NCBI GenBank assembly: GCA_017397725.1
Contig: JAFQIA010000011.1
Location: forward strand, 1 to 64,000
Length of the DNA stretch: 64,000 nt
Origin: Clostridia bacterium
GTDB taxonomy: Bacteria > Bacillota > Clostridia > Monoglobales > Monoglobaceae
Direction: 5' to 3'
The notes under the pieces are model-generated. The model had not been told where the DNA came from. It worked only from the letters and a program-made list of their open reading frames with translations, and searched no databases. A program made the position numbers and the translations under genes. This document shows positions 14,497-28,458 of this stretch, piece after piece (within the stretch, counting starts at the first letter, position 1; each line of letters begins with the position of its first letter).

Positions 14497-14571
14497 GGCT
14501 CCTTGGTCAAGTGGTTAAGACTCCGCCCTCTCACGGCGGCTACAGGGGTTCGAATCCCCTAGGAGTCACCA
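14497..14571 (+). tRNA. tRNA-Glu (CTC)
   Basis: 75 bases including an encoded CCA, three bases after tRNA-Met. The anticodon stem CCGCC/GGCGG encloses CT-CTC-AC, and the T-arm AGGGGTTCGAATCCCCT is perfect. The acceptor GGCTCCT/AGGAGTC contains one G-U pair. The CTC isoacceptor reads GAG only. Confidence 0.92.
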
Positions 14572-14573
14572 TG

Positions 14574-14608
14574 AAAAAAACGTACTGAATTTTTCAGTAC
14601 GTTTTTTT
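14574..14608 (+). terminator. Terminator of the tRNA operon
   Basis: AAAAAACGTACTGA/TCAGTACGTTTTTT is a near-perfect stem with a short T-rich loop and a T-run. It ends two bases before the first copy of the structured repeat. Confidence 0.9.
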
Positions 14609-14610
14609 CA

Positions 14611-14790
14611 GCGATATAAATTCCTGACGGAATTTGTGATATACCTTCGGTGCGATATATCCTGACGGATGCGATATGTTGCCTTACGGCAACGAGTAAA
14701 GGAATTTATATCATATCGCAACGAAACAAAGTGGAGTTATATCGAATTAGCGAAGCAAATATATCGCACGAACGAGAGTGAGTATATCGC
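14611..14790. repeat. Structured repeat element, copy 1 (180 bp)
   Basis: Bounded by 8-bp terminal inverted repeats GCGATATA and TATATCGC. The left half has units of GCGATAT (14611, a GTGATAT variant near 14636, 14652, 14671), each followed by a small hairpin: AAATTCC-TGAC-GGAATTT, ACC-TTC-GGT, ATCC-TGAC-GGAT, GTTGCC-TTAC-GGCAAC. The right half has facing ATATCG(C) units with further hairpins. TAAATTCC near the left end can also pair with GGAATTTA near 14701. It is about 80 percent identical to the copy at 27598-27775. No open reading frame is attached to this copy. No clear target-site duplication is seen. Confidence 0.88.
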
Positions 14791-14828
14791 CAACAAAACT
14801 AAAATATTTCTATAGTTCTGCTTTCCCC

Positions 14829-14863
14829 AAAAAAATCCGCACACGTTTGTGTGCGGATTTTTT
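14829..14863 (-). terminator. Terminator of uraA-upp
   Basis: AAAAAATCCGCACAC/GTGTGCGGATTTTTT is a long perfect stem with runs on both sides. It lies just beyond the upp stop and could also stop reading from the plus side. Confidence 0.9.
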
Positions 14864-27546: not shown

Positions 27547-27575
27547 TTGAATTTTCAGGCGGGGCGTGGTATAAT
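27547..27575 (+). promoter_or_regulatory. Strong promoter upstream of the second structured repeat
   Basis: TTGAAT, 17 bases, a perfect TATAAT. Transcription should begin near 27582, inside or next to a 9-bp hairpin (GATTTCATC-GAA-GATGAAATC, 27576-27596), and run through the repeat into the four-helix-bundle gene. Confidence 0.8.
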
Positions 27576-27597
27576 GATTTCATCGAAGATGAAATCA

Positions 27598-27775
27598 GCG
27601 ATATAAATTCCTGACGGAATTTGCGATATACCTTGCGGTGCGATATATTACTTCGTAATGCGATATGTGCCTGCGGCACGAGATGAGGAATTTATATCAT
27701 ATCGCAACCGAATGAAATGAGGTTATATCGCATTTGAGAAACAAATATATCGCACGAACGAAGTGAGTATATCGC
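27598..27775. repeat. Structured repeat element, copy 2 (178 bp)
   Basis: Same architecture as the copy at 14611-14790, with more regular units. GCGATAT lies at 27598, 27623, 27640 and 27660; ATATCGC lies at 27699, 27725, 27747 and 27769. Hairpins fill the gaps: AAATTCC-TGAC-GGAATTT, ACC-TTGC-GGT, ATTAC-TTC-GTAAT, GTGCC-TGC-GGCAC on the left; AACC..GGTT and ATTTG..CAAAT on the right. Stem sequences differ from copy 1 but pairing is kept. It forms the leader of the four-helix-bundle gene, which starts 18 bases later. Confidence 0.9.
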
Positions 27776-27792
27776 AGAAAGAAGAATAAATT

Positions 27793-28077
27793 ATGAATGA
27801 TAAAACAATAAAGGAATTAGCGGTAGAACTTACTGTTGAGATAACTGCAATATGTGATAATATAAAAGGTAGAGCAGTATTTGTTAATCAGTTATTGCGG
27901 TCGTGTTCTTCAATAGGCGCAAATTCACATGAAGCAAAATATGCACAAAGCAGAGCAGACTTTATTCATAAATTGGAAATAGCATTGAAAGAATGTTATG
28001 AAACTGAATACTGGTTAGAAATTCTTTATAAGGTTAATTCATTACAAGAAAATGTATATGTTGTATTCGGCATTTAA
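27793..28077 (+). CDS. Four-helix-bundle protein (23S rRNA intervening-sequence/S23 type), C-terminally truncated
   Basis: 94 residues matching the small four-helix-bundle family first known from intervening sequences in 23S rRNA and related to the Avd accessory protein of diversity-generating retroelements. The core is LLRSCSSIGANSHEAKYAQSRADFIHKLEIALKE (only partly conserved RSGTSIGAN), then ETEYWLEILYKV. Family members normally run to about 120 residues with a fourth helix. Here the frame ends after about residue 90 in unrelated sequence shared with the next reading frame, so the last helix is lost. The gene is A+T-rich and lies directly behind the structured repeat. Confidence 0.8.
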   Translation: MNDKTIKELAVELTVEITAICDNIKGRAVFVNQLLRSCSSIGANSHEAKYAQSRADFIHKLEIALKECYETEYWLEILYKVNSLQENVYVVFGI

Positions 28078-28393
28078 TGGATTAAGATGGTTTGTATTGA
28101 GCGAACCTGATATAATTCAAAAAGTTGTTTCTCCTGATGGAGAATATGTTGCGTATGTGTTCGAAAGTAATGGTGGGGCAACTTCGTGGTTTGTATATAG
28201 ATTGTCTATTTTGAAAAATGGAAAGCAACCAAAACGAGGCGATGTAGGAAATACATATATTAATGATTATGAATTTGATGTCGAATGGAAAGATAACGAT
28301 ACTTTGATGGTCAATAATACAACAACAATTAATTATAAGCAAGAAACAAAAGTTCATGGTGTCGAAGTAATATATAAATATTATGGTGATTGA
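28052..28393 (+). pseudogene. DUF5412-like protein lacking its N-terminus
   Basis: 113 codons. The body (VVSPDGEYVAYVFESNGGAT, FVYRLSILKNG, FDVEWKDNDTLMV) matches DUF5412-type proteins, which normally have an N-terminal membrane or lipoprotein segment. That segment is missing, and the reading frame instead begins inside the tail of the four-helix-bundle gene without a ribosome site. It looks like the downstream half of a deletion or insertion junction near 28055. It might still be translated by coupling, so calling it a pseudogene is an inference. Confidence 0.6.
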
Positions 28394-28458
28394 ACAAGAG
28401 GCACCTAAATTGTACACTGATTTTATAATAAAACCATCATAAACTGGGGAGGAATACG

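Follow-up and report, generated by a model that had tools for sequence, protein, structure and literature searches.

In the second of two copies of a repeat in the window (a 64,000-nucleotide stretch of a Clostridia bacterium genome, contig JAFQIA010000011.1), a promoter, a perfect hairpin, the 178-bp repeat and a PF05635 gene lie in one line, an arrangement that the initial annotation had described and that was confirmed on the sequence. The features of this copy (copy 2) are the following.

27547..27575, + strand: promoter, with the −35 box TTGAAT (27547-27552) in the flank, a 17-nt spacer and the −10 box TATAAT (27570-27575) at the left junction
27575..27597, + strand: hp0, the left-end perfect hairpin, TGATTTCATC-GAA-GATGAAATCA, read from the sequence; promoter-type copies have a hairpin at the same place
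27598..27775 (178 bp), + strand: separator-hairpin array, with GCGATAT at 27598, 27623, 27640 and 27660, ATATCGC at 27699, 27725, 27747 and 27769, and hairpins between
27793..28077, + strand: four-helix-bundle (4HB) gene, PF05635/TIGR02436 by profile matches, its C-terminus lost through an internal deletion
28052..28393, + strand: cargo gene DUF5412 (PF17428), its N-terminus lost through the same deletion and the gene intact in genome G017
28401..28429, + strand: right end, GCACCTAAATTGTACACTGATTTTATAAT, where the family right-end motif matched best within the window, with two mismatches

Two sizes given earlier were revised: the hairpin stands, with arms of 10 bp rather than 9 bp (TGATTTCATC at 27575-27584 and GATGAAATCA at 27588-27597), and the gap between repeat and start codon is short, as stated, at 17 nt rather than 18. 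The 4HB gene matched PF05635 at 4e-19 and 69.2 bits (curated cut-off, 33.8) and TIGR02436, "four helix bundle protein", at 75.3 bits (cut-off, 24), and the solved structure nearest to its product in sequence is 2rld. The right end supplies a second −10 box, TATAAT, at 28424-28429, which is followed by the 5′ leader of the next gene and then by that gene (28459). The whole element thus begins with the −10 box at 27570, takes in the DUF5412 gene and closes with the right end (28401-28429). An element of full length and with constant ends, as had been anticipated, exists, but it extends beyond the interval first noted (27547-28077), and the copy in the window is internally deleted. Compared with the intact element of G017, approximately 140 nt are missing, and residue ~88 of the 4HB protein is fused to the DUF5412 cargo gene. 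The window protein lacks the last helix of the family, whereas its homologues in G022 and on contig C2 of the window's own genome (G000) are intact. Judged from this sequence, the window copy is probably decayed and its 4HB protein probably inactive, because the last helix is deleted.

The array of copy 2 shares 85% identity (blastn) with that of copy 1, which lies directly 3′ of the CCA of a tRNA-Glu gene and extends from 14572 to 14829.

14497..14571, + strand: tRNA-Glu(ctc) ending in CCA, the target of copy 1 (ARAGORN, Rfam)
14572..14610, + strand: hp0 of copy 1, TGAAAAAAACGTACTGAA-TTT-TTCAGTACGTTTTTTTCA, a terminator-like perfect palindrome read from the sequence
14611..14790, + strand: array of copy 1, solo and without a gene, found by sequence comparison
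14801..14829, + strand: right end of copy 1, AAAATATTTCTATAGTTCTGCTTTCCCCA, with two mismatches to ATCTNTATGGTTCTGCTTT

The right end of copy 1 is of a tRNA type that was also present in the tRNA-linked copies at loci L011, L012, L028, L030 and L034. Over the whole window, the best matches to the two right-end variants were the ends of copies 2 and 1. The motif GCATCTAWATNGTTC gave 15 matches in 10 of 38 family genomes, and its reversed control gave none. A single right-end motif for all units was rejected, because GCATCTAWATNGTTC was not found in the insertions at rlmD, where CTTTTGKASTCTTGACC before CACGT occurs instead. Solo arrays are common elsewhere: G022 carries approximately 17 arrays and a single 4HB gene. 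Like copy 1, which has a right end of its own, these solo arrays are short non-coding copies that match the coding units in array and right end, so that the earlier description of copy 1 as a non-coding, MITE-like derivative holds.

The array has a regular order. It opens with four GCGATAT separators, each with a small hairpin behind it, which lead to a middle segment, after which each further hairpin is followed by ATATCGC, to a total of four. Among 24 aligned arrays, the separators were near-invariant, and the hairpins varied in sequence and length yet remained palindromic. A second pairing joins the first separator and hairpin arm to the middle segment GGAATTTATATC; in it, 99% of the cells were paired and 11 were compensatory, whereas shuffles gave 1.7 compensatory cells and slid controls no more than 4, indicating that alternative foldings are conserved. 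As RNA, the array of copy 2 folded with z = −5.7, and an Rfam search of the window returned tRNAs only, with no family matching the array. The stems contained 1801 Watson-Crick, 9 G-T and 5 A-C pairs, a count in which G-T is underestimated since it was penalised as a mismatch and trimmed at stem ends. With that trimming as a caveat, we read the near-purity of the stems as upkeep of the array at the DNA level, because a maintained RNA would normally have more G-U pairs.

The repeat occurs three times in the window's genome, twice directly before a PF05635 gene. To judge this association more widely, an array was called where at least five ordered heptamer copies, typically 4+4, lay in the 400 nt upstream of a 4HB gene, with control stretches taken from the same loci. 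The set comprised 112 PF05635 loci, taken from the order as well as from named gut Clostridia, and was biased towards relatives of the query (an 80-locus sample was picked by closeness to it); such arrays stood upstream of 82 of the genes, compared with 2 of 371 control stretches. Had homologous genes rarely been preceded by the repeat, the adjacency in the window would have been put down to chance; this explanation is now negligible, and the proposal that repeat and 4HB gene form one unit is borne out. Upstream of the other 30 genes no ordered array was detectable, and some of these have other inverted repeats. At L042, L045, L047, L056 and L113, 4HB genes lie behind tRNA terminators with an inverted repeat of the type TTACTTATTACCTATTCACT and without 4+4 heptamers; these genes may represent the element in another style. 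The third 4HB gene of the window's genome (L008, G000:C21) lies inside a decayed inverted array, AAGTGATATT / AATATCACTT, at 560-650 and 1125-1200, in a layout like that of an intervening sequence (IVS).

Separators came in the variants GCGATAT, TCGATAT, TGAAAT, TGAAGT, TGATAT and GCTAAAT, and they followed the protein tree with 8 changes, against a minimum of 5 and a shuffled mean of 45.8, in a relatives-biased sample where near-copies aid the clustering. A same-strand tRNA gene was present within 420 nt upstream of 32 of the 112 4HB genes, and the 3′ end of rlmD preceded 16. Since the GCGATAT family was found at promoters, tRNAs and rlmD alike, the tight link is that of protein to array, not of array to locus. 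Cargo behind the 4HB genes was varied (AAA, peptidase S51, HTH+T5orf172, GNAT and membrane proteins), the boundary between cargo and host genes being set at part of the loci.

The unit looks mobile in comparisons between genomes, most of which are draft MAGs. The window unit (array, 4HB gene and DUF5412) recurs at another locus in G017, which belongs to another genus; the halves of that copy, which has a contig break within a 46-nt overlap of two contig ends, are 92% and 96% identical. The gene downstream of copy 2 has a single orthologue, with a different upstream neighbour, which gives no view of the window's own empty site, and a sister element in G022 was taken for the empty-site comparison in its place. 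This unit stands between the rlmB promoter and the leader, with its junction precisely at the −10 box, the point at which copy 2 also sits, whereas the promoter is uninterrupted in seven genus mates, and joining the two flanks by script restored the aligned promoter. The junction hexamers are TAGAAT on the left and TATATT on the right; the repeated TATAAT of promoter insertions could be borne by the element rather than duplicated from the target. At rlmD (identified by TIGR00479, 1e-108), insertions lie inside the 3′ end of the gene, hp0 encodes the last rlmD residues, and the target word is found again 469-1006 nt beyond the 4HB gene, matching at 24 of 24 positions in L135 and 20 of 24 in L137. 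In L136, the original rlmD C-terminus, HVESVVCLTRKI, is restored after the unit. Insertions at the 3′ ends of tRNA genes and of rlmD often stand in tandem. Among genus mates, the 3′ end of one tRNA-Arg gene differs from genome to genome: it carries one to four tandem units with different separators or none at all, and the variants include a lone array, a 4HB unit belonging to a different type and a stack of four.

Several further observations concern the tRNA-Arg sites and the ends. The stack at L198 (G028:C9) has the separators TGAAAT, AGCTAAAT, TGAATTG and TGAAATA, with the 4HB gene in the last unit. At L195 (G030:C30), a right-end-like motif stands inverted directly after the tRNA-Arg CCA (AAAAAAGCAGAACCAAAGAGATATAATG), without an array. 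Tandem arrays at L030 (G022:C1:57781 and 58042) have hp0 hairpins that are reverse complements of each other, with a flipped loop, and GAA/TTC loop flips were also seen between L001 and L010/L054; such flips may reflect inversion or resolution of the hairpin during movement. A viral contig (L202, IMG/VR 3300032167_007799) carries a 4HB gene in a −10-box unit whose TCGATAT array is shortened, and tandem TGAAAT arrays were seen at L201; the units may travel with phages.

Beyond Clostridia, inverted tandem heptamers flank 4HB genes on plasmids of Nostoc, Dolichospermum, Aulosira, Planktothrix and Treponema, one example being (AATTCGT)x4 before the gene and (ACGAATT)x4 after it; at two of nine plasmid loci (L215 and L219), the repeats were no clearer, or little clearer, than in control stretches. 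The cyanobacterial arrays, which we take to be short tandem heptamer repeats (STRR), resemble those of Clostridia as inverted arrays of units of about 7 nt directly beside 4HB genes, but they are simple tandem heptamers without interposed hairpins, and the gene lies inside the inverted repeat. This likeness suggests one architecture in two styles. On a plasmid of Nostoc TCL26-01 (L219, 1504-1860), cas2 and cas1 stand on either side of a 4HB gene that has inverted AAAAGT repeats. A CRISPR survey listed the 23S intervening-sequence protein (IVP) among proteins near adaptation modules (PMC10910872), an association that an insertion of the kind suggested by L219 may explain.

Taken together, we consider it probable that this region of the window derives from a small site-specific mobile element, now decayed, which consists of hp0, a 4+4 separator array, a cognate 4HB gene and a right end and whose protein would bind the array. 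In a complete unit, whose architecture the sequence comparisons show, the left palindrome hp0 touches the target and would restore the interrupted feature, serving as leader after a −10 box, as terminator after a tRNA gene or as the last codons of rlmD. Four identical separators of 6-8 nt and then their four reverse complements, with hairpins between, follow, then the cognate 4HB gene, usually with variable cargo, and finally a conserved right end beside the second copy of the target. The 4HB protein would bind its own separators on DNA, in an extruded or single-stranded array, and would mark or synapse the ends and join them with the target. The units carry no known transposition enzyme; cutting and insertion would fall to a host or co-resident recombinase, and solo arrays would be mobilised in trans.

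Four other explanations were weighed, of which chance adjacency was dealt with above by the recurrence of the association. A phage, ICE or Xer-type integrase might move the array, with the target repeats as att sites and the 4HB protein as a regulator or passenger. Streptococcal ICEs are known to integrate at tRNA 3′ ends and at rumA/rlmD, the target duplication reaches 24 nt, and integrase genes lie near some cyanobacterial 4HB genes. We nevertheless regard this explanation as unlikely, since the tight pairing of protein and separator suggests that the 4HB protein recognises the array, −10 boxes are atypical as att sites, and no integrase was seen within the units. Far less probable still is that the array is immobile and regulates the 4HB operon in cis from the leader RNA, as a riboswitch or attenuator. 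Its position and promoter in the window fit this view, but solo arrays, tandem stacking and the occurrence of both empty and filled sites do not, and neither do the tRNA-linked arrays, which lie outside the 4HB transcript.

The same arrays bear on an RNA-level element, in which the 4HB protein would bind the array RNA as Avd binds its template RNA, with reverse transcription by an enzyme in trans. Avd, of diversity-generating retroelements, is a 4HB homologue, as are the 23S IVPs (PMC10053308); the array is a 5′ leader in −10 and rlmD insertions, its RNA folds well, and the targets are transcript boundaries. Against this, G-U pairs are scarce in the stems. The gap from array to ATG is 14-17 nt in promoter insertions and many rlmD insertions but mostly about 50 nt in tRNA-linked units, where the array lies behind the terminator and upstream of the 4HB promoter and is therefore not the 4HB leader. 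A reverse transcriptase acting in trans was rejected: RVT_1 was not detected in the element-rich genomes G000, G016, G017 and G020-G030 (drafts, 68-93% complete), which also sets the units apart from diversity-generating retroelements. We hold this explanation to be improbable, though less so than a fixed leader. The initial suggestions that the repeat forms a transcribed leader and that the unit binds RNA are thus not supported as general statements, the pairing and placement of the arrays favouring a DNA-level role for the array over an RNA leader.

A broader reading is put forward tentatively, and we hold it with some doubt: PF05635 proteins across phyla could be the specificity factor of an unnamed mobile class bounded by inverted, roughly 4+4 heptamer arrays (hairpins interposed in Clostridia; simple tandem in cyanobacteria and Treponema), in which a non-enzymatic bundle protein replaces an own transposase and of which the 23S intervening sequences would be relics. 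IVP proteins, heptamer repeats and MITEs are each already known; new is the pairing of a 4+4 array with its cognate bundle protein in one mobile unit, and the open-access literature yielded no description of 4HB genes with hairpin or heptamer arrays. Bacteria may thus hold a type of mobile element so far undescribed. For 23S intervening sequences, origin and mobility have been described as unclear, as has the function of the widespread PF05635 proteins (PMC4990558), and a protein paired with a DNA array, precise sites, and empty and filled sites in relatives make both questions directly testable. The units also offer a rule for many orphan 4HB genes and for the palindromes and heptamer repeats scattered through gut Clostridia and cyanobacteria, and they add a cassette-like path by which genes may travel among bacteria of the rumen and gut.

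Among known systems, the closest in protein family are the 23S intervening sequences with an S23p/IVP ORF, in which the ORF is enclosed by inverted repeats in conserved RNA genes and which have been proposed to be remnants of a mobile element of unknown mechanism; in the PF05635 family, the solved structure 2gsc shows five bundles arranged as a ring (PMC4990558). These sequences lie inside 23S rRNA and are excised by RNase III, whereas the units described here occupy promoters and the 3′ ends of tRNA genes and of rlmD and have 4+4 separator arrays, cargo and tandem stacking; Rfam found no rRNA in the window. REP/BIME elements with RAYT are palindrome arrays scattered between genes, with one cognate gene and many solo copies. 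The present units share this organization, but their partner is a 4HB protein and not a Y1 HUH enzyme, and they have 4+4 separators and precise targets; a Y1/RAYT transposase was rejected as a candidate because its presence is not consistent, PF01797 not being found in the unit-bearing drafts G016, G017, G021, G025, G026 and G030. Integron cassettes with attC resemble the units as small, stacking cargo units with a folded site and diverse cargo (GNAT, AAA, peptidase and membrane proteins), but here neither an integron integrase nor attI was seen, every unit has its own array, and the targets are chromosomal genes.
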